DNA of 64,000 nucleotides from Candidatus Aminicenantota bacterium (GTDB taxonomy: Bacteria; Acidobacteriota; Aminicenantia; Aminicenantales; Aminicenantaceae), in contig WVXO01000012.1 in NCBI GenBank assembly GCA_011773465.1, positions 2,368 through 66,367 of the forward strand, in the 5' to 3' direction. The translations under genes and the position numbers were made by a program. This document shows, one piece after another, positions 42,079 through 61,875 of this stretch. The notes under the pieces are model-generated. The model ran no database searches, was not told the DNA's origin, and was given only the letters and a program-made list of their open reading frames with translations. Numbering within the stretch: position 1 is the stretch's first letter; the number at the start of each line of letters is the position of its first letter.

Positions 42079-42239
42079 GCGGTCAGACTTGCAAAACTTG
42101 AGTTTTTTGCGGGATAAAATAAAATCATACAAACTGAGGCCGTCAAATAAGAAACAGATAAAAACTTAACTCTTAAAGACCTGACCGACCAGGGAAAACA
42201 GGGTACAATAGAAAGCTCAAGTTTTGCAAGCATGATCCC
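42079..42239. mobile_element. MITE-like element, 161 bp, copy 1
   Basis: Terminal inverted repeats gcggtcagacttgcaaaacttgag / ctcaagttttgcaagcatgatccc; same length and largely alignable to 44401-44561. Confidence 0.75.
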
Positions 42240-42282
42240 AAATTTTTAATTCAATAATTCAAGTTTTCAAAGTCTGAGCCCT

Positions 42283-43410
42283 GTGTTACAATCGCTCTTT
42301 GGCAAAAGGCTTGAAATGTTCACTAGAAGAACTGCTAAAAAGTTCAGCAAGATTTATAAAGAGGCAAAGAAACCAGAAAATCGTTTCCACTTTGATCTTG
42401 AGAAAGACTGCCTGGTCCTTTTTTCTGACCATCACAAAGGCGATGGAAGTGCAGCGGATGACTTCAAGAAAAACGCTCTCCTTTATGAATCAGCTCTTTC
42501 TTTCTACAAAGAAAACGGATTCAAGCTTATCGTTCTCGGAGATAACGAAGAACTCTGGGAGTGCAGCTATGATCAGATTCTGGCGATACACAGACAAATA
42601 ATCGAGAAAGAAATCGAGATCGCTCTAGTCTCCCCGAATCAAAAGAAGATAAGAATATGGGGAAATCATGACAAAGAGGTATCTCTGTGGAGGTTCAGAA
42701 GGTTTTTAAAAGCTCTGGGTGAAAAGATCCTGAATAAAGTTGATCATAGAAAAGGTCTCTGTCTTGGTGAAGATATTTTTCTGATCCATGGTCACCAGGG
42801 GAGATTTTTTGAGGACAAAGCCTGGAGGGTGAGCCGCTGGGCTGTCCAATTTGTTTGGAAAACAATGCAAAAAATCTTTAAAATCGGAATTGACGGCCCC
42901 GCAGAAAATTATGAGATCAGGGACGACTTGGAGTTTCAATACTATGAGTGGGCCAAGAAAAATAAGGTGATGTTAGTCTGCGGTCACACTCATCGAGCAA
43001 TTTTCGCTTCCTTGACTCATTTTGACCGCCTTCAAATAGAAATTCGCCACTTGGAAAAACTCTTAAAGGAAACGCCCACAGAAGGGCGGGAGAAACTAGA
43101 GAAAGAAATAAATAGGAAAAAAGCAGAGAGAGAAAAAATACTGAGGAAAAGATCGGGAATAATGCCTAAATCCTTTGCTAAACATCCTGGGTGGCCCATT
43201 CCTTGTTATTTTAATGCCGGCTGTTGTGGCTACACGAACGGGATAACCTGTCTTGAAATAGAGAGACAAACGATTCGTCTTATCAAATGGCAGCGTGACA
43301 GCGGCGAGAGAATCGTCTTGGCTGAAGAAAACATTCAACTCCTTCTCAAATACATCAAAGAAAGTCGCTCTGTGGATGAATCCCTGGAGCCAAAATTGAA
43401 AGACTACTGA
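42283..43410 (+). CDS. Metallophosphoesterase
   Basis: LVLFSDHHKGDGSAADDF; LIVLGDNEELWE; RIWGNHDKEV; FLIHGHQG; LVCGHTHRA; alternative ATG at 42316. Confidence 0.88.
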   Translation: MLQSLFGKRLEMFTRRTAKKFSKIYKEAKKPENRFHFDLEKDCLVLFSDHHKGDGSAADDFKKNALLYESALSFYKENGFKLIVLGDNEELWECSYDQILAIHRQIIEKEIEIALVSPNQKKIRIWGNHDKEVSLWRFRRFLKALGEKILNKVDHRKGLCLGEDIFLIHGHQGRFFEDKAWRVSRWAVQFVWKTMQKIFKIGIDGPAENYEIRDDLEFQYYEWAKKNKVMLVCGHTHRAIFASLTHFDRLQIEIRHLEKLLKETPTEGREKLEKEINRKKAEREKILRKRSGIMPKSFAKHPGWPIPCYFNAGCCGYTNGITCLEIERQTIRLIKWQRDSGERIVLAEENIQLLLKYIKESRSVDESLEPKLKDY

Positions 43411-43420
43411 TGTCGTGAAA

Positions 43421-43688
43421 GGGATCAAACTTGTAAAACTTGAATAATTTCTTTCTTTTTTATAAACAAATGGCATTAGAATTCTAACGTGTGTAGACCA
43501 ACGGATCCATGCCTTCAAGACTCGAATTTCTTGCCTTTTCTTGTGCTAGACCAAGGGGATCAGACCTTTAAAATTTATGTTTATCACTTTATCTTGAAGG
43601 CCCGATTTTTTATTATATTGAAAAGCTCATGTTTTAAAGGTCGGATCACAAAGATTTAAAATAACTCAAGTTTTGCAAGTCTGACCCC
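43421..43688. mobile_element. MITE-like element, compound copy with a second inverted-repeat element inside (43557-43648)
   Basis: Outer arms gggatcaaacttgtaaaacttgaa / ctcaagttttgcaagtctgacccc; inner arms gggatcagacctttaaaa / ttttaaaggtcggatc. Confidence 0.65.
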
Positions 43689-43832
43689 CTGACTTTGTTT
43701 TTGTTTGAAAAATAATTATAATTCGAAAAAGATAAAAGTTTCAGGAGAATCCGAAAAAAGGATTTCAAATAAGTAAAAGGTTTACTGCTTAGCTCAAAAC
43801 TTAAGCGGACATCAAGCGTGTCATCCTAGGAG

Positions 43833-44399
43833 GTGGCTATGAAAAAAATAACAACTCAAATCGAAAAATTTCAGCATTTTTATCCTTATACTGTGGCCAT
43901 TGTGGGCGCTCAATCAGAAAATCAAATCAATTACATGGCCTGTGCCTGGCATACCGCCCTTTCCTTTGATCCACCGCTCTTCGGTGTTCTTGTCGCCAAA
44001 AAGAGACTTACGCATCAAGTTATCTATGAGGCAAGAGAATTCACCGTGAACTTTATCAGCTCAGAACGGGTAAAACTCTCTGCTCAGATGGGAAGAAAAT
44101 CAGGTCATGATATGGACAAGATCAAAGAGTTTAAGGTTAAACTTTCGCCCGCAAAAATTATCCAAACCCCTGTCTTCGATGAAGCTTATGTCTCTTTCGA
44201 ATGTAAAGTGGCAGATATCAGAGCTTACGGAGACCACGATCTTTTCGTAGGTGAAGTCTTAGCAATCCATGAAGAAGAGAAAAGCTTCAACTCAGAAGGG
44301 ATTCTCAATACCGGAAAAATTCATCCTCTTCTTTATCTTGGAAACGACTTTTACATCACCATCAACCCTGATACTCTCAAGCATGTCATTCCCGATTAG
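43833..44399 (+). CDS. Flavin reductase family protein
   Basis: YTVAIVGAQSENQINYMACAWHTALSFDPPLFGVLVAKKRLTHQVIYEAREFTVNFIS. Confidence 0.88.
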   Translation: MAMKKITTQIEKFQHFYPYTVAIVGAQSENQINYMACAWHTALSFDPPLFGVLVAKKRLTHQVIYEAREFTVNFISSERVKLSAQMGRKSGHDMDKIKEFKVKLSPAKIIQTPVFDEAYVSFECKVADIRAYGDHDLFVGEVLAIHEEEKSFNSEGILNTGKIHPLLYLGNDFYITINPDTLKHVIPD

Positions 44400-44400
44400 C

Positions 44401-44561
44401 GGGATCAGACTTGCAAAACTTGAGTTTTTTGTAGGATAAAATGAAATCATATAAACTAAGGGCGTTAATTAAAAAGCAGAAAAAAACTCAACCTTAAAAG
44501 GCCTGATCCCTCAGGAAAAACAGGCAAAAATAAATAACTCAAGTTTTGCAAGTCTGACCCC
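44401..44561. mobile_element. MITE-like element, 161 bp, copy 2
   Basis: gggatcagacttgcaaaacttgag ... ctcaagttttgcaagtctgacccc, near-perfect terminal inverted repeats. Confidence 0.8.
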
Positions 44562-44574
44562 AATGGAGGTTTAA

Positions 44575-46941
44575 ATGAGGCATATGAAAAAAAAGCATTT
44601 TCTTTCCCTTATCTTTGTACTGATCATTATTTTTGGGATTATTCATGCCCAGGGAGAAAGCACAAAGGCTTCAAAGTTCGAACTGACGATTGACACCATA
44701 ATGAAGGGTACTGAGCTTGTCGGCACCGCGCCCTCAAACGTTATGTGGTCAGTGGAGGGGGCAAAGCTTTATTTCCGCTGGCAAAAACCTGGAGAGGAAA
44801 AGTCTGAATTTTATTCGATTACAAAGTCGAATCTATCCCCAAAAAAGACGACTATCGAAGACCTTCTTAAGCTTCCTCCCATTCCCTCTCGCCGTTCTTC
44901 CTACTCCCGCTACTTTCGTTCTGGACTCCGCGGGGTGGAGATAAAATTCGACAGGAAGAAAAAAAGAGCTCTTATTGTACGGGAAGGGGACATAAGTCTT
45001 CTGGATATTGCGGCAGGAAAAACCACCCAGCTTACGTTCACAGACGACCGGGAGTCAAACGCAAATTTCTCGTTTGACCAGAAAAAAATCTATTTTACCT
45101 ATCAAAATAACCTCTTCCTCCTCTCTCTTGAAAACAACAGCCTTCGCCAGATGACTTCTATCTCTAAAAAGACTCCTCCTCTGGGTAAAAAGCCAGATGA
45201 GGTCGAAGAATGGTACCGTGAACAGCAGCAAGAACTCTTTCAAGAATTCAAGAAAGGGCAAAAAAGAACGGATCAGAGGGAGACACTTCCCTCTTCTGGC
45301 AGAATAAAAAAAAGAAAGCCTTTTTTGCTGGGCCAAGATCAGAACCTTTATAATTTCGATCTTTCTCCCGATGAAAAATACGTTGTTTTTATGATTTCTG
45401 AAAGTCTATCTGCGGCTAAACGGACAATCGTCCCCAACTATGTCACCAGAACAGGATTCACCGAAACAATAAATTCCCACACAAAAGCTGCCCAATCATC
45501 GAGAGATTACAAAGCAGGAATCATGGATGCCTCCAATGGAGAAGTTAAATGGGTCGATTACAATCAAGAAGGAAAAAAAATTCTTCCATCAACTATATTC
45601 TGGTCTCCAGACGGGAAAAAATGTGCCCTGACCGCAAGTTCTGATGACAGGAAGGACGAGTGGCTTTTACTCCTAGATATAAGCAGCGGAAAAACATCCG
45701 TCATCGAATATATCCATGATGAGGCCTGGGTTGGCCCGTTGGGGTTGACAAACATCACCTGGTATCCGGATGGCCGTCGTATTTTTTATATCTCGGAGAA
45801 GGATGGCTATGCTCATCTTTATAGAGCTTCTCCTGACGGGAAACAGAAAAAACAACTTACCAAGGGCAAATTTGAGGTTTACAGAGCCCAGCTCTCCAAG
45901 GATGGTAAAAAATGGTATTTGCTATCTAATGAAGAACACCCGGGGGAGCGCCACTTGTACTCCATGAAAGCGGAAGGAGGCAAAAGGACGAAAATCACCT
46001 CTTTGAGAGGTCGCAACCAGGCCATTCTATCCCCAGATGAATCTTCTCTGGCCATTATTTATTCCTCTAGCAACAATCCTCCGGAACTCTATTTCCAGCC
46101 TAACAGGCCAGGAGCTGAGGCAACCCGGGTGACTCTATCCTCAACAGAAAAGTTTCGCTATTACGATTGGCATGAACCGGAAATCATAACATTTAAAGCT
46201 CGCGACGGAATCAATGTCTACGCCAGGCTCTACAGACCGAAAAACTGGCATGCTCAAAGTCCGGCTGTCATCTTTATCCATGGCGCCGGATATTTGCAGA
46301 ATGCCCATAGGGGTTGGAGCAGCTACTACCGGGAATACATGTTTCATAATTTATTGATGGACAAAGGCTATCTTGTCTTGGATGTTGATTACAGGGGGAG
46401 CGCTGGTTACGGCCGAGATTGTCGGACAGCCATCTACCGTCACATGGGAGGAAAAGACCTTGATGATATCGTCGACGCTGCTCAATTTCTGGTAAAAAAA
46501 TTGAATGTCAACCCGAATAGAATTGGAGTATATGGAGGGAGTTATGGAGGCTTTCTGACACTAATGGCTATGTTTAAAGCTCCTGATGTGTTCAAGGCAG
46601 GCGCTGCTTTACGACCTGTCACTGATTGGGCTCACTACCATCCAGGCTACACCGTAGATATTCTCAATCTCCCCCATGAAGACACCAAAGCTTATAAACA
46701 AAGCTCGCCCATCTATTTTGCAGAAGGACTCAAAGGTTCACTCCTCATCTGCCACGGTATGGTTGACACCAATGTCCATTTTCAGGATACAGTCAGATTG
46801 GTGCAACGTCTGATTGAACTAAGGAAGGAAGGCTGGGAAGTGGCTATTTATCCTGTGGAAGGGCACTCTTTTCATAACAGCTCCTCCTGGGCAGATGAAT
46901 ACAAGCGGATTTTCAAACTCTTCGAAGACAATTTGAAATAA
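44575..46941 (+). CDS. S9 family (prolyl oligopeptidase/DPP IV-like) peptidase
   Basis: Beta-propeller repeats; GVYGGSYGGFLTLMAMF (GxSxGG), GMVDTNVHFQDT, EGHSF catalytic triad motifs; signal peptide. Confidence 0.93.
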   Translation: MRHMKKKHFLSLIFVLIIIFGIIHAQGESTKASKFELTIDTIMKGTELVGTAPSNVMWSVEGAKLYFRWQKPGEEKSEFYSITKSNLSPKKTTIEDLLKLPPIPSRRSSYSRYFRSGLRGVEIKFDRKKKRALIVREGDISLLDIAAGKTTQLTFTDDRESNANFSFDQKKIYFTYQNNLFLLSLENNSLRQMTSISKKTPPLGKKPDEVEEWYREQQQELFQEFKKGQKRTDQRETLPSSGRIKKRKPFLLGQDQNLYNFDLSPDEKYVVFMISESLSAAKRTIVPNYVTRTGFTETINSHTKAAQSSRDYKAGIMDASNGEVKWVDYNQEGKKILPSTIFWSPDGKKCALTASSDDRKDEWLLLLDISSGKTSVIEYIHDEAWVGPLGLTNITWYPDGRRIFYISEKDGYAHLYRASPDGKQKKQLTKGKFEVYRAQLSKDGKKWYLLSNEEHPGERHLYSMKAEGGKRTKITSLRGRNQAILSPDESSLAIIYSSSNNPPELYFQPNRPGAEATRVTLSSTEKFRYYDWHEPEIITFKARDGINVYARLYRPKNWHAQSPAVIFIHGAGYLQNAHRGWSSYYREYMFHNLLMDKGYLVLDVDYRGSAGYGRDCRTAIYRHMGGKDLDDIVDAAQFLVKKLNVNPNRIGVYGGSYGGFLTLMAMFKAPDVFKAGAALRPVTDWAHYHPGYTVDILNLPHEDTKAYKQSSPIYFAEGLKGSLLICHGMVDTNVHFQDTVRLVQRLIELRKEGWEVAIYPVEGHSFHNSSSWADEYKRIFKLFEDNLK

Positions 46942-50358: not shown

Positions 50359-51639
50359 TTAAAATGTGGCTGGGATTACTTCTTGCCAGGATTTGATTTT
50401 AAAAGGAGTGTCATCAACGCCGTCAAGAGCTAGGGCAGCTAAAGCCAGGTCGTAATGAATTTTTGAGTTGGAATCACACTCAAAAGATTTGGCCGAGATA
50501 GAACCGTAAAAATCGGCATTGCTGTTGAAATGCACGTCGGCTTTGGGCACGTAAACAGCACCCCAAAATTGGGAATTGGAATTCCACTCCATTTCTCCGT
50601 TAAAAGTATCTGTGCCCAGTATCAGGAGATTGGTAGGGTCTTCGGATAAATTATTGATTTGAGTGTTGCTGTGTTGGATAAAACTTCCACCAAGATAAAT
50701 TGTGACCTTAACTCCAGGGGCAATTTCAAGCTGCGAATTGCTGCGCATGGCGAATTCGCCTGTCACATAAAGGGATACATCAGCCGCAATTGTTACCGTA
50801 CAGTTGGAATCTAGCCTGAAAGAGGTATATACGCCGCTTTCGTCTATTGTATCCGAGTCGTTACCGCCAAGAGAATAGTCACCACTATAAAGGAGGTCTT
50901 CAGGAAGAGGAACTGAAGGCATATCATTGGGCTCGGATAAAGAATCCATTTCTCCAAATATTTCAGCGTTGCCCCGGGTTATTATCACATCCTCCGGAAT
51001 GGTCTCAGGCCCTGATAAAGCATTCCCGTAGATTCTGGCGTTTGAGTCTAAATCAATACAGCCATAATGAGTGCCGTTGGTGCCCACATGTCCTTCAGAA
51101 CCCATGTTCGAGCCGCCATAAGCCCCGTCCCTGGAGTCATAACTATCTACATATGCGTTTGAAGCGAAGTCCAATTCTTCATCGCCAAAAATTCCGTTAA
51201 TCCAGGGTTTATACTTCTCTTCTTCCAAGACTATTCTGGCGCACTTGGATAATACTCGAGACTCAACCATGGCTACTCTGCCTAAAGACGATATAACAGG
51301 ATACTCTCCATCAGGATCTTCAACCCTAATTTCGATATCCCCGATCACATTGCCATCTGGAGTTTGAAAAGATGAAATGGTCATATTCCTCAGGGAGCTA
51401 TCTCCATCCCAGGTCGTGATATCTCCATAATTCAGTTCCCAGATAGCTCTCTCAACCCCAGCTTCAGCCAGAGAGAGGGCTGCGGAAGATTTGTAAGATT
51501 TAGTGGTGAGCTTATTCTCAAAAGAGAGTTGGTATAAAAAAGGAATAGCCAGAAGAAGCAAGAATGACATGACTACCAAACCAACAATCAGGACAAAGCC
51601 TTGTTCCTCACCTTTCCTTTTTAAATCCTTTTTCATCAC
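50359..51639 (-). CDS. PilX-like minor pilin with large beta-rich C-terminal domain
   Basis: EQGFVLIVGLVVMSFLLLLAIPFLYQLSFENK class III-like signal; paralogous to 51825..53141. Confidence 0.75.
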   Translation of the reverse strand: MMKKDLKRKGEEQGFVLIVGLVVMSFLLLLAIPFLYQLSFENKLTTKSYKSSAALSLAEAGVERAIWELNYGDITTWDGDSSLRNMTISSFQTPDGNVIGDIEIRVEDPDGEYPVISSLGRVAMVESRVLSKCARIVLEEEKYKPWINGIFGDEELDFASNAYVDSYDSRDGAYGGSNMGSEGHVGTNGTHYGCIDLDSNARIYGNALSGPETIPEDVIITRGNAEIFGEMDSLSEPNDMPSVPLPEDLLYSGDYSLGGNDSDTIDESGVYTSFRLDSNCTVTIAADVSLYVTGEFAMRSNSQLEIAPGVKVTIYLGGSFIQHSNTQINNLSEDPTNLLILGTDTFNGEMEWNSNSQFWGAVYVPKADVHFNSNADFYGSISAKSFECDSNSKIHYDLALAALALDGVDDTPFKIKSWQEVIPATF

Positions 51640-51824
51640 CTCTTTTGCTTTCCCAATCCTTTGTTTCCTTTTCTGTATTAATCAGCACTGTTTTAATTGT
51701 TTGGTAAAAAAAAGTTTATCACCCATTGCAGCTGATTTTTACGGTTATTTTTTCCTATCTCCATCGCCTTTTGAGGCTAATCTATTTGATGAACTGATTG
51801 CGTGTTTGCGATCTATTCCTAACC

Positions 51825-53141
51825 CTAGTCGGAAACTTTTATTTGCCAGGATTTGACTATGTACAAAGATCCCATCGAAGGAAGAATTTCAAGATCTTCT
51901 AAAGCCTTATCATAATGCAGTACCGTGTCTTGATCAAAAAGGACATTGTTAGCTATTATAGCGCCATAAAAACCGTCTGCCTGATCCAATTCCACAAAAG
52001 CATTAGGCGCATAAATTGCCCCATAAAACTCAGAATTTTGGTCAATATAAATATCTCCTGTAAAGCTTTCTGTTCCAAAAAGCACAAGCTTGGTTGGATC
52101 TCGGGATAGATTGTTCATACTAGACGTCTGGTCCATCTCAAAGGTTCCACTCCCCATGATAATCTGAAGGCTTGCGCCGTCAGCGATATCAAGCCTTGAA
52201 TTCTGGTCCATGTAGAAATCGCCTGTTATGTAGAGGATAACATCATCTTCAATTGTCACTATGGAGTTTGCTTCCATCGTGAAAGAGCCATATTGGCCGC
52301 TCAAGAAAATCGAATCCGTGCCGCTCATCGAATAATCACCCACCCAGAGAAGTCCGCTAGGAGGAGTAATCTGAGGGAACTCTATCGGAACGGTCAATGC
52401 CCGCTTTTCACCATCAATATGGGCGCCGGGAGCAGTTATTATAACCGATTCTGGGTCGCTCTCATAACCAGATACTGCATCGCCGGCTAAATCAGAACTA
52501 TTGTCCATATAAATAGCACTAAAACTGACCGAGTTAGTTCCGATATCTCCGTCCGAGCCCGAATTGCCGGGATTGCTATAGTCTCCATTCCTTGAATCAT
52601 AACTATCGATATATACTTGCCGGTCGATCATTATTCCATCATCCCCAAAAGCTGCAAACTTAAAAGGAGGAAATCCACCCAACTCTGATCTCACTGTCCT
52701 CACCACTTTTTTGTCCCCAACATACAAAACTGTACCCCTTGATTCCACAATAGGATGATCTGCAGTAGGATACACAACCTTTATCCCCACATCGCCTATC
52801 ACACTCCCTCCAGAAGCCTGGAAAGAAGAAATGTCCATAGTACGCAAGGTATCATCACCCGTCCAGCTCGAGATGTCTCCATAATTCAACTCCCAGATAG
52901 CTCTATCAACTCCAGCTTCAGCCAAAGAGATGGCTGCAGAAGATTTGTAAGACTTATTGGTGAGCTTATTCTCAAAAGAGACTTGGTATAAAAAAGGAAC
53001 AGCAAGAAGAAGCAAGATTGCCATAACTACCATACCAACAATCAGGACAAAGCCTTGTTCCTCATGCCTGCTTTTAAAACCCTTGCTTATAACACTTTTT
53101 CTTTGAACATCGTTGCTTTTTGTCTCATCCATTTTGCTCAC
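51825..53141 (-). CDS. PilX-like minor pilin with large beta-rich C-terminal domain (paralog)
   Basis: EQGFVLIVGMVVMAILLLLAVPFLYQVSFENK; same domain layout. Confidence 0.75.
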   Translation of the reverse strand: MSKMDETKSNDVQRKSVISKGFKSRHEEQGFVLIVGMVVMAILLLLAVPFLYQVSFENKLTNKSYKSSAAISLAEAGVDRAIWELNYGDISSWTGDDTLRTMDISSFQASGGSVIGDVGIKVVYPTADHPIVESRGTVLYVGDKKVVRTVRSELGGFPPFKFAAFGDDGIMIDRQVYIDSYDSRNGDYSNPGNSGSDGDIGTNSVSFSAIYMDNSSDLAGDAVSGYESDPESVIITAPGAHIDGEKRALTVPIEFPQITPPSGLLWVGDYSMSGTDSIFLSGQYGSFTMEANSIVTIEDDVILYITGDFYMDQNSRLDIADGASLQIIMGSGTFEMDQTSSMNNLSRDPTKLVLFGTESFTGDIYIDQNSEFYGAIYAPNAFVELDQADGFYGAIIANNVLFDQDTVLHYDKALEDLEILPSMGSLYIVKSWQIKVSD

Positions 53142-53207
53142 CTTTTTTTTAATAATTTATCTCTCATCTTCTGCTGAAAAGATGATGATAAATTCACCAA
53201 TTCTCCC

Positions 53208-53831
53208 TTAATCAGATTTGTTCCTCAGCTTTACTCCAGTCTTAAGAGTCTCCTGGAAAGTGCGACCCAACAGATTCTGAGTCGTTATCAAGGTGATATC
53301 CACGCAGGCAACTTGACTGAAATCAGCTACACCAGAAAGCTCGACTCCTGCAGAGCTTAACTGAAAAGAATTCACTCTTGTGGCTATGGTTCTGCTACTG
53401 TCTGCCCTGCTGCTAACCCCATCATTGGCATCAATAATTCTTTCTAACCGGTTAGGATATTCAGAATTGAGACGATAGACTATATAGTCAAACTGACTAC
53501 TAATATCGATTATGATACCATTAGAATCCAACGAGGGAACTTGAAGAATAATACATTCTGTGGAAGTAGCATAGACATCCCAGCTCGGCACAACTTGGAT
53601 CGCCTCTTTTATATCTCGAGAGATATAATTGAGCACATGCCTGTTATCCCGAAGCACATCAGACCTTGCGCTTCCGTTCATATAATATCTCTGTCCGGCA
53701 ACATAGAGAGAAAGCATAGCCAGGATCATAAAAGAGACAATGGAAACTGTTATCAAGACCTCAACAAGGGTAATGCCCGTTGGCTGGAATTTTCTCTGCT
53801 CGGATTTCCTGGATTTTTTTAAAATCATCAC
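53208..53831 (-). CDS. PilW-like prepilin-type protein
   Basis: PTGITLVEVLITVSIVSFMILAMLSLY; VLRDNRHVLNYISRDIKEAIQ. Confidence 0.8.
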   Translation of the reverse strand: MMILKKSRKSEQRKFQPTGITLVEVLITVSIVSFMILAMLSLYVAGQRYYMNGSARSDVLRDNRHVLNYISRDIKEAIQVVPSWDVYATSTECIILQVPSLDSNGIIIDISSQFDYIVYRLNSEYPNRLERIIDANDGVSSRADSSRTIATRVNSFQLSSAGVELSGVADFSQVACVDITLITTQNLLGRTFQETLKTGVKLRNKSD

Positions 53832-54259
53832 TTTCTATTGATCCCCTTCCTGGTTATAAAAGTAACCACATCCTTACGCATCTGCGTTTCCCTGTAAGTC
53901 CAGAAAACACTCACAGTTAGTTTTTTGATGTCGTCTCCTAAAGAATCTTCGACATTTACGGCTCCAGTGCTGTTTTCCAGGAGAGAGAGACTTTCGTTCG
54001 TAAAAGAACTGTCAAGAGTTAAAATATCATTAAAAGACATGTTCCGAATAAGTTCTAATTCTTCTTGAATGGCTTGAGTGGCAATGGCTATTTGTTTCAT
54101 TCTGGAAAGGACGTTAAAACCATGGAGAAAACAGCTAAGGAGAGCAATTAAAACCAGGGCTAAGATCACCATGGTGACCAAAACCTCGATATAAGTAAGT
54201 CCCTCTTCTCTTTTTTTTCTTTTGACGGCTGCGCCTTTTCTCTCTGCTGGTTCCTGCAT
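53828..54259 (-). CDS. PilV-like prepilin-type protein
   Basis: EEGLTYIEVLVTMVILALVLIALLSCF; ATG at 54259 preceded by GAAGGAGG. Confidence 0.78.
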   Translation of the reverse strand: MQEPAERKGAAVKRKKREEGLTYIEVLVTMVILALVLIALLSCFLHGFNVLSRMKQIAIATQAIQEELELIRNMSFNDILTLDSSFTNESLSLLENSTGAVNVEDSLGDDIKKLTVSVFWTYRETQMRKDVVTFITRKGINRK

Positions 54260-54277
54260 ATTATTTTCCTCCTTCAA

Positions 54278-54796
54278 CTAGATAGTGCTTCCATGTACAC
54301 GAGATGTTGGAATTTGCTTTTGGGGAAAGGAGCATACCCAGTTATATCCACTCTTTTCTAATCCCACTCTGGTGGTTCTCTCCAAATACACTCTGGCAGT
54401 CTTGCCTTCTGCGAGAGGGCTAGTATAGGCTACTCGACCAGTAGACCTCACTTGAGGATTCTCTCCCTCAAGATCTTCAATCCTTATCTTGATATCCCCG
54501 ATCACCTCGCTGGCAGGAGCTTGATAAGAAGAAATAGTCAGTGTTCTCGATGTGCTATCCCCTTTCCAGGTTGAAATATCCCCATAATTCAGCTCCCAGA
54601 TCACTCTCTCTACTCCAGCTTCAGCCAGAGATAGAGCAGCAGCGTAATTGGCAGATTTATCAGTGACCTTGTTCTCAGGAGATTGCTGGAATAGATGCGG
54701 AACAGCAAAAACAAGCAAGAATGCCAAGATGGTCAGTCCGATAATCAGGAGGGAACCATCCTTTCGTCCTCTTTCAATTTTTATTATAACTTTCAT
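54278..54796 (-). CDS. Short PilX-like protein (lacks the C-terminal domain of its two paralogs)
   Basis: KDGSLLIIGLTILAFLLVFAVPHLFQQSPENKVTDKSANYAAALSLAEAGVERVIWELNYGDISTW; stops soon after the shared N-terminal part. Confidence 0.7.
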   Translation of the reverse strand: MKVIIKIERGRKDGSLLIIGLTILAFLLVFAVPHLFQQSPENKVTDKSANYAAALSLAEAGVERVIWELNYGDISTWKGDSTSRTLTISSYQAPASEVIGDIKIRIEDLEGENPQVRSTGRVAYTSPLAEGKTARVYLERTTRVGLEKSGYNWVCSFPQKQIPTSRVHGSTI

Positions 54797-55149
54797 CTCC
54801 TTAGCCTCCTAACGTCCCTTTTATTGTAACTACTGTTTTAGTCGGAGAAGAAGGCTAAAAGTTCATCATCTTCGGAGGCGATTTTTATGATGATCTTTAT
54901 ATCACCCCCCATACCTCCGACGACTAATCAACTTAATGACAGGGTGAAGAGGTTCTTAAGAGAAACGTATGAAGGAGAAGAAGGGGAAAGATAAAAAAAC
55001 TACGTTTTTTGTGCCCCTATTTTTTATAATAATAAAAAAATAGGGAATATAGAGATCTGATTTTGTGGTAAATAATGACTAAAATTTGGGCAATAATGCA
55101 AAACAGGGACTAACCACTTTCTTTGGAATGGCTAACCAAATTGGAATTA

Positions 55150-55239
55150 AAAAAAAATGGGGACAGTCCCCTTTGTTGGGACAGCCCCCCTTTCAGGGAC
55201 TGTCCCTCTATCCCCATTTTTGGGACTGTCCCTATTTTT
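55150..55239. repeat. GGGACAGTCCC/GGGACTGTCCC palindromic repeat tract
   Basis: atggggacagtcccctttgttgggacagcccccctttcagggactgtccctctatccccatttttgggactgtccctatttttt. Confidence 0.85.
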
Positions 55240-58200
55240 TTATCTGAAGATCCTGTAGACTTCTCTCCAGGATTTTACTTTGAGCATAGAAGTGCCTAAC
55301 TGCTCCAGCTTCTGAATAGTCGAATCATACTCTTGAATATAAACCTCTCTCTTCCGGGCACCACCCGAAGCTCTCTCTCTTTCACCTATGGTAACCGCTG
55401 CTCTTGTCTTTATGGCCAGGTCCAGGCTCTCTTTAGGACCGGTGGCTGTTTCAAAGGCCGTTCCACCAAGGGTGGTTCCAGCTTCAGCTTGGATATATCT
55501 TGCATAAAGCTTTCCCACACCGGTTATGCTTTCGCAGGGATCAACACTATCAATACTTCCTGTTAGGGTACTAAAATAAACAACGTAATCAGCAACTTTA
55601 GGATCTGCCCACACCCTCTCTCCAATGCTGATATCGCCCATATCTTTTTCTGGTGGCAGAGCTAGTATGGCATTGTTGCCGAGATACCATTCTACCTCAG
55701 GAATAGGAGAATCCTTAAGTGCAATAAAAGAGTAGACTGCATCACTCGGAGCTCTATCATCGCCCCCTGTCCCAAAATACAGACGGGGGATGGGTCCTCC
55801 TGAAACATAATCAACCCAGACAGCTGGTTTGCTTATAATCGGATAATTGTTAGAGTCTTTATAGATTGTCACCGCGGCCCAAGAAGTGGGATCTTGATAT
55901 TCTATACTCACATCTACTTTCCACATTCTTCCATCCAAATCTGCCACATAGACTCTATCTACATAACCATCTTGATCGATATCGATTATCGTAGGAGATC
56001 CAGGAATGGTGTTAGGAATGTTCCAGCCTAAAGCAGCTGTAGTGTCCACTTCCGGTGCATAAAACGCCCAGAAATATTCCCCTGTCTCCGCGTCTACTGC
56101 ATAAAAAACATTGCCGACAACTTCGCTCGGGCTATTATCATAGCCAGATCCCATAAAGGCAAGCCAAGCGTCCTCTCCGTTGCTTCGGATTTTACCCGTT
56201 ACAGGCACAGACCAGCTTTCTCCCAAAAAGTCATGAGTGAACTCCCAAAGCGGCTCAGGACTATCAGGATCAGTAATATCCAGGGCAAAGTAATAATTTG
56301 TTCCTCCTCCGATGCCGCTTCCTTTACCAGCCCCCTGACCACAGATAAGAATCGTTGTCCATTCTTTGCTGGCATCTCCGTTAACATCTATGTAAACATC
56401 GGCAACCATCGGGCTCCCGTCGACATAAATATCTCTGGCAAAGTACCTCTCTCCTGTTACCTCTGCGACTGCCCATATGTTCTTCATCTTGGGAAGAAGA
56501 TTATAAGGGATAAAGCCCCACAACTCTTCTCCTGTAAGAACATCAAAACAATGAATCATTCCGTCATTCGATCCTACATAAACCACCTTTCGTCTGTCTG
56601 CCCAGGTGTTCATAAACTCCTCGTATCCGTCTCCCATAATAACAGGGGCTTCATCTGGGGGACCGACAACAACGGGATTGGAATGGTTGCTGTCTCCTAG
56701 TTTCCACTCGCGCCCTTCTCCTCTTATAAAATTTATCAATCCTTCATTATCGTTGTTTACATCCTGTAGAATCGGCCCCAGGATAGCCACATTGGAAACA
56801 TTGAAGTCGATTCTTGTTAGAACAGAACCCTCGGCAATGGCCGTGTATATTGTTCTGGTGGCAGCTGAGCGGGCATTCAAGAGCTCTCCCGCGTCCCAGA
56901 CAACCTCCACGCCGGAAGGAACAATCTCTCTTCCTGAAGGCTGGGTTAAATCCTGACGACTCACTGTCCTGAGAACAGAGTAAGCTGTGGTCTCAGGAGT
57001 CATTGCGGTTAAATCATATGCTCTTAGATGTCCGTTCCAGGTCGGAAAGAAAAACGTGCTGGCCAGGAGATATTTTTTCTTCTGATTGCTTTCATCCACA
57101 ACATTGGTTACCACAACAGAGGTTCGAGAGTATTCTTTTTTGTCGACAAGAGTATATGCGAATGTAATCTGGCTAATTATGGGAGAATCGAATGATGCGC
57201 CCGAATATTCTTCCATCGGATCCTCGGGGGCGGTCATGATGGCTTTCCACCTGAGGTGGGAACCAAAGTGTTTAAACGCGTGTATGGGTAGATTATTGTA
57301 ATTTTGGATATCACTTCCCTCAAAAGTTGTGTAATACTCCCAATCTTTTCCGTTATTATTGGATAGATAGTATTCCACTTTAAGGCCGGCTGCGGACGTG
57401 CCTCGAATCTTCTGGCTGAGTCTTGTAATCTGCACTTTGGTTATGGCATAGAGCTCGGGATCCAATGCCCCTGAAATATCAGTAGACCAAGCCTCTCCGT
57501 AGGTGGTATAAACATTGGCTAATTCATTCCTAGCCAGATAATAATCTCCTGAATGGTTGGCATCTGCAAAAACCCAATCAACATCTCCGTCCATGTCAAA
57601 ATCCACGGATATGCCCATATCCACATCATGATACTTTTCATCAACACCATCACCATCACCATCCCTATAAATTGGAGGTGTAATCGGCAGACAATCATTT
57701 AAGCATTCAAATTGGAAGTTAACGGGAATACCTTCGATTTCTGCAAGTCCCTTACTTCTATACATCCACATCCTGGCATCATTCCCTGCGTTCCATACAT
57801 CATTGGAACACATTAGATCGAGCCATCCATCTTGATTAAAATCACCAGCACAGGTCGCAACTGCACCTATACAATCAGGATTGGGAATCAGAAGTTCATG
57901 ACGAGTGAAGTATCCAGTCCCATCATTCTCATAAAAAACTAAAAAGGGAATAGCTTCCACTGTACCGGCGATAACATCTATATCTTCGTCGTTATCCCAA
58001 TCAGCAGCCTCAATAGTAGAGCCTCCCATGTCTATCGTAAAACCTGGTGGTTGGTCATAATTAAGTTCAACTATGTCAAAATTAGCTATATCAAAACTTC
58101 CTGTTCCGGGATTCCTCACGAGAAATATTTGATTCTGACTGATAACCAATACATCTACATCTCCATCTTTGTCTATATCTACAGAACAAAGGTGGTCAGC

Positions 58201-58896
58201 AGACCATCGACAGTAAATCCCTTCAGTCTCGAATCTGCTTGTAAAATCCAAGTTTGGAGAAGAACCATGGGGATAAAAATCTGGATCAGTTGCTGTTCCC
58301 ACATTGATATACATGGCAGCCACAAATTTATCGTAAATTGCATCGTCGCTATCATTCTTATAGAAGAAAAAATCAATTAATCCGTCATTGTTGTAATCTG
58401 CGGTGGTTATAGAAGCTGGCCCCGCATCTAAGCCTGTCTCATAGATTTCGCTCTCATCTGTCTGAAAAATAAGGCCATCATCATCTAATCCATCATTATT
58501 AAGGTCTTCAAATGTATTTCTTACAAGAATCAATACATAACGCCTATCTGTGATACCTGGATCTGGATCCATATCTGTGATATCCAGACCAATCAAATCA
58601 GGAAGACCATCACCATCAAAGTCACCGGCATCACAGACATAAATTTGTGATCCCATCCCCGTGGGTGCTGTAATCTCCAAGTTGCCCCCCAACCAGTTCA
58701 GCGTTATCGGTCCAGGAGGCCAGTAGGCGACTGAAGTGTGGTCCGTGTCTTTATAATCTTCTGTGTTGAAATTTTCGGTAAAAATTCCTCCTACATATTC
58801 TACACAGCCTTCCTGAGCCCAAAACTTCACAGTGAAAAAGCAGATCAGTATGACTAGCGGCAAAAATAGCAGCATGGTTTTCTTTCTTTTATTCAT
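55240..58896 (-). CDS. PilY1/PilC-type pilus tip protein with N-terminal FG-GAP/VCBS repeats
   Basis: N-terminal DGDGLPDLIG, DYNNDGLIDFFF, DIDKDGDVDVLV, DWDNDEDIDVIAG, DFNQDGWLDLMCS, DFDMDGDVDWVF; C-terminal VYVGSNDGMIHCFDVLTGEELWGFIPYNLLPKM, DIDQDGYVDRVYVADLDGRMWKVDV. Confidence 0.88.
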   Translation of the reverse strand: MNKRKKTMLLFLPLVILICFFTVKFWAQEGCVEYVGGIFTENFNTEDYKDTDHTSVAYWPPGPITLNWLGGNLEITAPTGMGSQIYVCDAGDFDGDGLPDLIGLDITDMDPDPGITDRRYVLILVRNTFEDLNNDGLDDDGLIFQTDESEIYETGLDAGPASITTADYNNDGLIDFFFYKNDSDDAIYDKFVAAMYINVGTATDPDFYPHGSSPNLDFTSRFETEGIYCRWSADHLCSVDIDKDGDVDVLVISQNQIFLVRNPGTGSFDIANFDIVELNYDQPPGFTIDMGGSTIEAADWDNDEDIDVIAGTVEAIPFLVFYENDGTGYFTRHELLIPNPDCIGAVATCAGDFNQDGWLDLMCSNDVWNAGNDARMWMYRSKGLAEIEGIPVNFQFECLNDCLPITPPIYRDGDGDGVDEKYHDVDMGISVDFDMDGDVDWVFADANHSGDYYLARNELANVYTTYGEAWSTDISGALDPELYAITKVQITRLSQKIRGTSAAGLKVEYYLSNNNGKDWEYYTTFEGSDIQNYNNLPIHAFKHFGSHLRWKAIMTAPEDPMEEYSGASFDSPIISQITFAYTLVDKKEYSRTSVVVTNVVDESNQKKKYLLASTFFFPTWNGHLRAYDLTAMTPETTAYSVLRTVSRQDLTQPSGREIVPSGVEVVWDAGELLNARSAATRTIYTAIAEGSVLTRIDFNVSNVAILGPILQDVNNDNEGLINFIRGEGREWKLGDSNHSNPVVVGPPDEAPVIMGDGYEEFMNTWADRRKVVYVGSNDGMIHCFDVLTGEELWGFIPYNLLPKMKNIWAVAEVTGERYFARDIYVDGSPMVADVYIDVNGDASKEWTTILICGQGAGKGSGIGGGTNYYFALDITDPDSPEPLWEFTHDFLGESWSVPVTGKIRSNGEDAWLAFMGSGYDNSPSEVVGNVFYAVDAETGEYFWAFYAPEVDTTAALGWNIPNTIPGSPTIIDIDQDGYVDRVYVADLDGRMWKVDVSIEYQDPTSWAAVTIYKDSNNYPIISKPAVWVDYVSGGPIPRLYFGTGGDDRAPSDAVYSFIALKDSPIPEVEWYLGNNAILALPPEKDMGDISIGERVWADPKVADYVVYFSTLTGSIDSVDPCESITGVGKLYARYIQAEAGTTLGGTAFETATGPKESLDLAIKTRAAVTIGERERASGGARKREVYIQEYDSTIQKLEQLGTSMLKVKSWREVYRIFR

Positions 58897-58932
58897 TTTT
58901 TCACCCCGCTTATTTATGTTTAATCATGTAAA

Positions 58933-59544
58933 TCATGTTCCTGGTCGTTCAAGGACCAATTCTATTTCTAACCTTGTTGTCGTAATAGTATTCCCTATCT
59001 CAACACTTCCGATGCAGACCAAAATAGCATCGGTAGGATCAGGGATTCCCACGGCGGCCTCATCGTCAATCAAAAACGCAGTGTACCTGTAACGATTGTC
59101 CAGGCCGCTCTCGGTTTGAATATAGGGCTGTCGACAAAAAATAACGTTTACCAGATTAGATGTCCCATCCCAGTCTGAATCAATCAGGTTCAGAAGTTCT
59201 ATATCGCTTAATCTTCTAAAATAATTATCCGCTTGAGGATTATCAATCCCTATAGGTTCAACGACATAATGTCCTTCAAAATGAGCCCATTCGCCAATGC
59301 CAAAATATTCTTCGATATTTGTCCAGGCCACATCAAACCCTGCTTCAGCAGCATTATAAGCCTGCTGTTGAGTCCGAATGTTTCCGGCTACCTTTGGACC
59401 GGTGCCTGTCACCTGAAGAAGCACAAGCCCGACGACTTGCAGAAATGCCAGCACAATGACGACAATAATTAAGGCCATTCCCTTCTCATGTTTCGAAGCT
59501 GGCAATTTATGGTTTATTTTCAGAGATCTCTTTTTTTCCTTCAT
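58933..59544 (-). CDS. PilX-like minor pilin
   Basis: Internal start MKEKKRSLKINHK; EKGMALIIVVIVLAFLQVVGLVLLQVTGTGPKVAGNIRTQQQAYNAAEAGFD. Confidence 0.8.
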   Translation of the reverse strand: MKEKKRSLKINHKLPASKHEKGMALIIVVIVLAFLQVVGLVLLQVTGTGPKVAGNIRTQQQAYNAAEAGFDVAWTNIEEYFGIGEWAHFEGHYVVEPIGIDNPQADNYFRRLSDIELLNLIDSDWDGTSNLVNVIFCRQPYIQTESGLDNRYRYTAFLIDDEAAVGIPDPTDAILVCIGSVEIGNTITTTRLEIELVLERPGT

Positions 59545-59554
59545 TCTATCCTCT

Positions 59555-60778
59555 TTACATCGTGCCGCTGTTATATACGCCCAAGGACATATTCCTGATT
59601 TGAGCCGTTGACTCAAGCAAAAATCTTCTGTGTTTATCCGGCTGAGTTTGCTCAGGAGAATCAGCAATAGCGGGCTTCCCGTAGAGTTTTATCACTTCAT
59701 CTGGGGGAGCTCCTGTAAAACTAGCATAAGGATTAGCAGTTTTGCCCAGAATTAATATTCTTACAGAGCGAATTCCTGCTACCACCAAAGATTTACTTGT
59801 AAATTCTTTGCTTACAACTTCTTCTTCGTCGTCTTCTACCGGAAAGGGAAGATCAACCCAATTCTGGAAATCATTCACATCGACTGTCCCGTCGCTGTTG
59901 TTGTCATCAAGCTGTTGGTCGTCATTAATATCACCATGGAATTGGAACTGGAGATCTTCGATATTCTGGGCAAGGGCCAGATGCTCGTAACCATTAACCA
60001 GTGGATTCCATTGAGATACATACAAAACTCCTGGGACCCCTAAGTAGCCGTCTGTTCCGGTAATGCAACCCGGATAGTTGCCGTCAACATCAAGCCAGTA
60101 CGTTCTAAACTCGATAAAATGAACAGTGCCTCCGATGTAATCAGCTGGATCCCCTCCAACGGTCAATCCGTTCGGCAGCTTTGCGTTTGCCGGATCGACC
60201 CGCTCAAACGTGATTGTGTTGGCTATAAAGTCTACGGCGGTCATTCGACCGACTTCTCCTTTTCGCTTGTTTAATTCGGGATTGGGAAGAACAATGATTA
60301 ATCTGTTTATGAAACCTACAGGATCATCAGGATAGGCATTTGTATTATAAGGATAAATCTCAAACTGATTTGGTTCAACGGTAATAATGTTTGAACCGGG
60401 AGCAAAGCTTTGAATGAACAGCCTTAAAGGGTCTGCGTTTCCAAGGATTGTTAACCTATCAGGATAAGTTAGCGGACCGCCTTTACTGTCGTTGTTTTCT
60501 GCCTGAACAAAATAGCCAGCAAGTTGCTGAGGCAAGCCTGCTCCAGCGGATTTTATATCTCTGGAGATAAAATACATAGCGGCCCGAACATCGTGCTGAA
60601 GCTCTGCAAATCCCTGCTGGTCGACTGATACTGCGTTGCTCTTCGTGTAGAGAGCCAAGGTTGCGACAACAATAGTCAGCATGATTAAACTGCCGACTAA
60701 AACCTCTACTAGAGTGAACCCGCGTCTAGAAGAAACGCTTAAAGATGAAAACCTTCGATTTGATATTTTGGCTTTCAT
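59555..60778 (-). CDS. PilW-like prepilin-type protein
   Basis: RRGFTLVEVLVGSLIMLTIVVATLALYTKSNAVSVDQQGFAELQHDVRAAMYFISRDIKSAG. Confidence 0.85.
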   Translation of the reverse strand: MKAKISNRRFSSLSVSSRRGFTLVEVLVGSLIMLTIVVATLALYTKSNAVSVDQQGFAELQHDVRAAMYFISRDIKSAGAGLPQQLAGYFVQAENNDSKGGPLTYPDRLTILGNADPLRLFIQSFAPGSNIITVEPNQFEIYPYNTNAYPDDPVGFINRLIIVLPNPELNKRKGEVGRMTAVDFIANTITFERVDPANAKLPNGLTVGGDPADYIGGTVHFIEFRTYWLDVDGNYPGCITGTDGYLGVPGVLYVSQWNPLVNGYEHLALAQNIEDLQFQFHGDINDDQQLDDNNSDGTVDVNDFQNWVDLPFPVEDDEEEVVSKEFTSKSLVVAGIRSVRILILGKTANPYASFTGAPPDEVIKLYGKPAIADSPEQTQPDKHRRFLLESTAQIRNMSLGVYNSGTM

Positions 60779-60815
60779 TTTTTCCTTTCTTTTAGGCTTA
60801 TTCGTAGCTATTCCC

Positions 60816-61319
60816 TCACCTGCTTATAACCGTGCCTATGTCAGCTCGGACTTGATAATAGGATGGATTGGCGATAAGATTATCCAGCGCCGCTTGCGCC
60901 TGGACTGCTGGGAAGACCAGAACTCTCACGTCCCAATAAAATCCTGAGGCTGCGATCTGAGTTATTCTTCTGAAATCAACCGTTCCATCGCTATTGATAT
61001 CCATTAGTTCATCAATCGGACTCAAGGATAAGTTATGCAATTCATCGGCTGATAAGTTCCTCAGAAAGTCAATCTGTTGCTGAGCTAAAAAAGTTGCATT
61101 AGTCATTGCGTCTGAGCGAGCATTATTCATCACGCTCAAGCAGAAAAGCTGGGCCAATCCTAATAAGGCAACACCCACAAGGGCTATCCCCACCACAATT
61201 TCTATCATAGAAAAACCCTTGTTTTTAGCATCATCCCTGGAATTATTATCTAACGATCCCTCACTGGGAATCTGTGATTTTTTATCAAAAATTTCTCTCT
61301 TATTAATCATTTTATTCAC
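60816..61319 (-). CDS. PilV-like prepilin-type protein
   Basis: NKGFSMIEIVVGIALVGVALLGLAQLF. Confidence 0.82.
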   Translation of the reverse strand: MNKMINKREIFDKKSQIPSEGSLDNNSRDDAKNKGFSMIEIVVGIALVGVALLGLAQLFCLSVMNNARSDAMTNATFLAQQQIDFLRNLSADELHNLSLSPIDELMDINSDGTVDFRRITQIAASGFYWDVRVLVFPAVQAQAALDNLIANPSYYQVRADIGTVISR

Positions 61320-61875
61320 CTTCAGCTACTATGTATTGAATTGAGCCCCCGGCTATCACCTTAATAACTCTCTGGTCAGGTTTGCCATAGATTGCTAATT
61401 TAAGACTCTTGAAAGTGATGCTGTTTTGTGTGGAGCTGTAGTTTGCAACAAGACCCAATGGTGAGAATTCGACAGTCTCATTCGGAAAATTGACATTCAC
61501 TTGAAATTCACGTGGGATTGATTTTTTTATGAATCCACGCATTATATTCCACTGGGTCGGATTATCTTCTCTTTCAATAGAATAAATCCAGCCTTCACCC
61601 ACAGCCTCAAACCTCACCCTATGGTTCAATTTTGTTTTAACAGCCTGAAATTTTGCCCTTTGTAAAGTTGTCAGGACTCCTCTTGCTGAACCCTCAATCT
61701 TTCTTGTCTCCAAAGTGTTCAGGATGTTCGGATAGAATATTAAAGCCATGATGCCTATTATCGCTACGACTGCCAGAATCTCAACCAAGGTGAAGCCTTT
61801 TTGAGCAGATGTAGATTTATCCCTGGTATTTGCTTTTTCGTGTTTGTGCTTAGAAATTCTTGATATATTGTTCAT
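61312..61875 (-). CDS. GspH/FimT-like prepilin-type protein
   Basis: QKGFTLVEILAVVAIIGIMALIFYPNI; C-terminal GspH-like beta region. Confidence 0.85.
   Translation of the reverse strand: MNNISRISKHKHEKANTRDKSTSAQKGFTLVEILAVVAIIGIMALIFYPNILNTLETRKIEGSARGVLTTLQRAKFQAVKTKLNHRVRFEAVGEGWIYSIEREDNPTQWNIMRGFIKKSIPREFQVNVNFPNETVEFSPLGLVANYSSTQNSITFKSLKLAIYGKPDQRVIKVIAGGSIQYIVAEGE

Follow-up and report, generated by a model that had tools for sequence, protein, structure and literature searches.

REPIN-like doublets of inverted repeats, probably mobilised in trans by a resident TIRYT-type transposase, in a genus of Aminicenantaceae

Three non-coding units with related ends lie within 2.5 kb of one another in the window analysed here, a stretch of 64,000 nucleotides from a Candidatus Aminicenantota genome, and raise the question of what kind of element they are and what would move them. 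A sequence-only reading had described them as a MITE-like family mobilised in trans. Comparison with related genomes makes it highly probable that the units are non-autonomous, REPIN-like hairpin doublets of terminal inverted repeats (TIRs), mobilised in trans by a resident Y1/HUH transposase of the TIRYT kind. We read them as transposase-mobilised doublets because they have ends in common with the transposase gene, are dispersed, have folding potential, lie mostly between genes and belong to sites found both with and without elements.

Both 161-bp units and the 268-bp compound unit have the inverted ends GGGRTCAGACTTGCAAAACTTGAG in common (Table 1). The two 161-nt units are 80% identical overall and 76% identical in the interior, and an ungapped alignment of 159 nt (42083-42241 versus 44405-44563) gives 81% identity, in agreement with the equal lengths and alignable interiors described earlier. 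The shared TIRs also reported then hold for the family; the ends quoted are those of copy 2, and both outer ends of copy 1 have decayed. The compound copy proved to be a pair of type A ends around a type B doublet, and the tight placement of copy 2 is confirmed, as it starts one base past the flavin reductase stop codon (44397-44399) and ends 13 bases ahead of the ATG of the S9 peptidase gene. A 24-nt end has five matches in the window at up to three mismatches, versus 0.00 expected from dinucleotide shuffles. The predicted folding energies of the three units are -46, -54 and -68 kcal/mol, raw values taken without a shuffle control. Additional to the earlier description are the lone end before the phosphoesterase gene and a third, internal end in each 161-bp unit. 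Elsewhere in the window (50359-61875), reading the ORF list by eye picks out a series of genes whose products have type IV pilin-like N-termini (prepilin/minor pilin signatures), together with a 1218-aa protein.

Table 1. Repeat elements and neighbouring genes in the window
Feature	Position	Strand	Remarks
Copy 1, type A doublet, 161 bp	42079..42239	+	decayed ends GCGGTCAGAC (left) and GCATGATCCC (right); internal end present
Lone decayed type A end	42256..42281	-	AATTCAAGTTTTCAAAGTCTGAGCCC; before phosphoesterase gene
Calcineurin-like phosphoesterase gene (neighbour)	42283..43410	+	between two elements
Compound element, 268 bp	43421..43688	+	type A outer ends GGGATCAAACTTGTAAAACTTGAA...CTCAAGTTTTGCAAGTCTGACCCC
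Type B doublet nested in compound element	~43556..43649	+	GGGATCAGACCTTTAAAATTT...TTTTAAAGGTCGGATCAC
Flavin reductase gene (neighbour)	43833..44399	+	
Copy 2, type A doublet, 161 bp	44401..44561	+	between flavin reductase and S9 peptidase
Third, internal end in copy 2	44481..44510	-	GGGATCAGGCCTTTTAAGGTTGAG as read on the minus strand
S9 (DPP IV-like) peptidase gene (neighbour)	44575..46941	+	

The ends extend well beyond this locus. Genome-wide copy counts were taken from sequence searches rather than exhaustive alignment, and in this genome (G000; 2.59 Mb in 74 contigs, 81% complete) they gave only two full-length 161-bp matches, with over 30 places matched by a 30-nt end. Each strand has 29 copies of the head GGGRTCAGAC, whereas the reversed pattern gave 0 and 2, and 29 to 80 such heads were found in each of four congeners (the sister species G001-G004). 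The earlier proposal of a dispersed, non-autonomous family with inverted ends that would move in trans is thus supported, and confinement to the window, which would have spoken against it, applies nearly to the full 161-bp unit and not to the ends, which are present in all four congeners. Among 60 relatives searched for the unit and the end types, the 161-bp query matched within the genus only, apart from one weak match in each of two other genera, and the ends too are essentially confined to the genus; two full-length units were found in G004. No exact type A end was found in the viral contigs searched.

A catalogue of fetched loci distinguishes several end types, including type A (GGGGTCAGACTTGCAAAACTTG), type B (GGGGTCAGACCTTTCAAACTTTTATA), type C, a compact doublet of 78-80 bp, the separate type E (GGGGTCAGGTCTTGTTTTTTGC) and further types. 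The consensus sequences of type A (113 ends) and type B (53 ends) match the motif GGGGWSAS with GGGGTCAG; ends start with GGGRTC and bear no GTAG tag, and inspection revealed no stem-loop within a single type A end. Inverted doublets are mostly 65-270 bp in size, lie mainly between genes and are able to fold into hairpins. Counted without the automatic A/B labels, which confuse some A and B ends, the 82 doublets comprise 30 A/A (43-268 bp), 11 C/C and 9 B/B (95-154 bp) pairs, and seven A/B mixed doublets are also catalogued. Only 8 of the 82 fall mainly inside an ORF of at least 120 aa, at loci that are themselves 79% coding. In 46 of 63 doublets, at least one end has AWY as its nearest flank, against a background of 8% per end. 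Paired arm changes in type A number 23, compared with a shuffled mean of 16.5, a weak excess that 61 of 2000 shuffles reach; type B arms show no covariation excess over shuffles.

Orthologous places were compared mostly at loci already picked for carrying ends, and the comparisons therefore give no rate estimates. Of the relatives, in which empty sites were to be sought, G003 has speB, the phosphoesterase, the flavin reductase and an ABC gene in the same order (L174) without the three window elements, and a related remnant stands at the place of the lone decayed end at 42256-42281. In G004, a 161-bp unit lies between the flavin reductase and ABC genes, orthologous in position to copy 2 and 83% identical to it; the other full-length unit of G004, at an unrelated gene, shares 94% identity with the first. 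The same gap is only ~11 nt in G001, G002 and G003 (GGGGTCCGAAA, GGGTTTCGAAA and TGGATCAGAGT), which would fit either an empty site or a remnant. G001-G004 lack the S9 peptidase gene at the site adjacent to flavin reductase, whereas in the more distant relatives G017, G044 and G046 it adjoins flavin reductase, so that its absence from the congeners looks like loss; insertion of the peptidase gene beside copy 2 had been considered and was dropped, given the same neighbour pair in these distant genomes. TTTGAAATAA, the end of the S9 peptidase gene here, persists between the flavin reductase and ABC genes in G001-G004, which puts the boundary of the apparent loss near the outer end of the element. 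The phosphoesterase gene is present in G003 and missing from G001, G002 and G004, possibly through gene loss mediated by flanking repeats. The gap between speB and flavin reductase in the three genomes missing it holds a 13-nt palindrome or a decayed element.

Such variation bears on the possibility that the hairpins persist chiefly for their use as transcription terminators or as mRNA-stabilising or regulatory structures, with their spread being secondary. Roles of this kind are known for REPs in other bacteria, and the long hairpin directly after the stop codon at copy 2 and the mostly intergenic position of the elements would fit them. However, the presence, type and length of elements vary among sister species at the same gene pair, and the elements have no Rfam match at E-values up to 0.1, and we consider this explanation very unlikely.

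A Pfam Y1_Tnp search found two genes in G000 and ten places in the four congeners. The Y1 transposase gene next to lepA in G000 (L029) lies between type B ends (GGGGTCAGACCTTTCAAACTTTTATA; inverted-repeat score 28), the end type nested in the compound copy of the window. In G004 the orthologous gene, likewise next to lepA (L082/L263), lies between type A ends, GGGGTCAGACTTGCAAAACTTGCATAATTT and GGGGTCAGACTTGCAAAACTTGAGTTATTT (score 22.5), with a type B end standing just outside the bracket. The two proteins are 66% identical, both contain Y1_Tnp and Bac_DnaA_C (DnaA-like C-terminal) domains above cut-off, and they score 81.6 bits (G004) and 77.5 bits (G000) against the NCBIfam model for REP-associated tyrosine transposases, REP_Tyr_transpos, with a cut-off of 80; the HUH residues H60/H62 are invariant in the compared transposases. 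An A-like end (GGGGCCTGGCCTGCAAAACATGAATTATTT) accompanies the G005 ortholog, a hint that this gene had type A ends before type B. A type A-bracketed transposase was not found in G000, at 81% completeness of the assembly, nor in G001, G002 or G003. Across the order, inverted repeats flank most such transposase genes tested; they commonly start with GGGGTC or GGGGCC and continue in gene-specific tails. The most likely mobiliser is the lepA-adjacent Y1 (HUH) transposase with its DnaA-like C-terminal domain, rather than a DDE-type IS. The genus also contains a second, shorter Y1 transposase (L028, at G000:C55:4611-7949, L083 and L086) with GGGGCCAGGCCCCATTTTT brackets, the first 13 nt of which are themselves palindromic, like the solo remnant of types A and B.

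These findings also bear on the MITE-like description. A classical MITE would be a deletion derivative of an IS with a DDE transposase, moved in trans with target duplication, and the inverted ends, lack of coding capacity and intergenic position would suit it. However, no target-site duplication is visible at 42079/42239, 43421/43688 or 44401/44561, the only genes found with these ends encode Y1/HUH transposases of the RAYT/TIRYT kind, not a DDE enzyme, and third ends inside units, like clusters of ends, are characteristic of REP/TIR repeats. While the units are indeed non-autonomous and dispersed with inverted ends, a classical MITE is highly improbable, and REPIN-like TIR doublet is the better name.

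The association of ends with transposase genes recurs for type E, which has 12 to 62 copies in every genome of the genus and 68 in G016; G007, G025 and G034 carry smaller numbers, and 49 of the 60 relatives carry none. G001, G003, G004 and G007 each hold dispersed type E copies together with a type E-bracketed transposase; none was found in G000 despite 20 type E ends there. Separately, abutting type E ends without a spacer form perfect 44-bp palindromes at G007:C106:62317-62360, G007:C139:6153-6196 and G034:C370:3982-4025. Copies might instead have multiplied independently of any transposase, through recombination, gene conversion or template switching between scattered inverted repeats. The seven A/B mixed doublets, nested forms, tandem end clusters such as L217 and many sizes of internal deletion do suggest that the repeats undergo recombination and slippage, but this explanation is highly improbable, the least probable of the alternatives, as it leaves unexplained both the own-type inverted-end brackets on most RAYT/TIRYT genes of the order and the limitation of dispersed type E to some genomes, four of them with a type E-bracketed gene.

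For transposase-mobilised doublets, we hypothesise a mechanism whose steps of recognition, nicking, copying and target choice are modelled on work on IS200/IS605 and TnpA_REP (PMC8266576, PMC3116915). The TIRYT transposase gene would hold a fixed chromosomal position next to lepA, between inverted ends of the same kind, and its product would recognise both ends as single-stranded DNA, probably on the replication fork, nick within the ends and copy or move the doublet as a unit. The doublet would then enter, without target duplication, next to short A-rich motifs, AWY flanks being enriched. Type A units were probably spread by a type A version of the transposase, still present in G004. Since no type A-bracketed gene was found in the incomplete G000 assembly and the ortholog there carries type B ends, the type A units of this window are probably ageing relics. 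Loss of elements would leave internally deleted forms, and perhaps the 13-nt palindrome, through rejoining by the transposase or replication slippage across the hairpin.

The palindrome GGRGTCAGACYCC occurs 0, 4, 4, 1 and 1 times in G000, G001, G002, G003 and G004, respectively, and a reversed-pattern control gave zero in all five genomes. At three orthologous sites, the palindrome or a one-base variant lies exactly at the element position of a sister species, and a single site can carry, across species, type A, type B or only the 13-nt palindrome GGGGTCAGACCCC. One such site has a solo palindrome in G002, type A in G004, type A with an inserted type in G000 and type B in G003; another has a solo palindrome in G001 and G002 and type B in G000 and G003. 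The palindrome is made up of the outermost 6 nt of one element end and 7 nt of the other, and the join within it falls between C and A or between C and T, dinucleotides reportedly cut by TnpA_REP enzymes (PMC8266576). Deletion between the short GTC/GAC end repeats and transposase rejoining at these dinucleotides would give an identical product, and part of the solo 13-mers may derive not from type A or B ends but from ends of the GGGGCCAGGCCCC type. In a tree of the locus, G001, G002 and G004 group at 100 but G000 and G003 at only 61, so that either polarity between element and palindrome is possible. That the palindrome GGGGTC(A/T)GACCCC is both an excision footprint and a reusable landing site, which doublets of different end types leave and re-enter as species diverge, with the resident transposase switching end type in place, is a tentative idea that we regard as rather unlikely.

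Among known systems, the window elements fit the TIRYT/TIRtron kind and behave like REPINs, not like canonical GTAG REPs. TIRYTs are RAYT-like transposases flanked by TIRs with GGGGWSAS, some TIR families being dispersed, and include an Acidobacteria group (Di Nocera et al. 2013, PMC3733652). As there, we find an HUH Y1 transposase with a DnaA-like helix-turn-helix C-terminus, its gene (L029/L263) bracketed by terminal inverted repeats with GGGGWSAS rather than by stem-loop REPs, and TIR families as singles, dimers and clusters, in keeping with the sharply defined group in Acidobacteria. Most TIRYTs belong to TnpA_Y1 subclass 2.1, with DnaA-like C-terminal domains (PMC6006769), which the transposase here fits by domain layout; that 2018 survey equates the subclass with RAYT group 1 and reported that REP-like sequences were lacking in the vicinity of its genes. 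The elements share with Pseudomonas REPINs (Bertels and Rainey 2011, PMC3116915) inverted doublets, short conserved ends, variable spacers, intergenic hairpins and a transposase acting in trans, and the 13-nt palindrome is much like the REPIN excision footprints, which keep ~6 bp of conserved end. Unlike those REPINs, they have no GTAG-type tag and no palindrome within a single end, number tens rather than hundreds of copies and go with a different RAYT subclass. REP/BIME systems with canonical RAYTs (Nunvar 2010, PMC2817692; NAR 2021, PMC8266576) likewise have the rayt gene in place, an inverted-repeat bracket and coevolution, but their REPs carry GTAG/GTGG at the foot of the stem-loop. The Y1_Tnp catalytic domain is common to IS200/IS605, which, unlike the system here, with its single gene per end type, does not have the DnaA-like C-terminal domain. 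IS200/IS605 elements have no terminal inverted repeats and move autonomously.

The kind of element is thus already known; what the comparison of species adds is evidence for mobility, for turnover of types and for a switch of ends. Beyond the TIRYT/TIRtron description, it catalogues several end types over the sister species, together with sites lacking an element, 13-nt palindromes and a transposase that changed its end type between orthologs. TIRYT (group 1 RAYT) transposases are widespread, and this genus carries dispersed doublets matching their ends, in sister genomes so closely related that absent sites, possible footprints and, at one orthologous gene, a switch of end type can be read from them. 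The genus-wide doublets make the substrate, target and excision product of a TIRYT transposase directly testable with a single protein and a few oligonucleotides.
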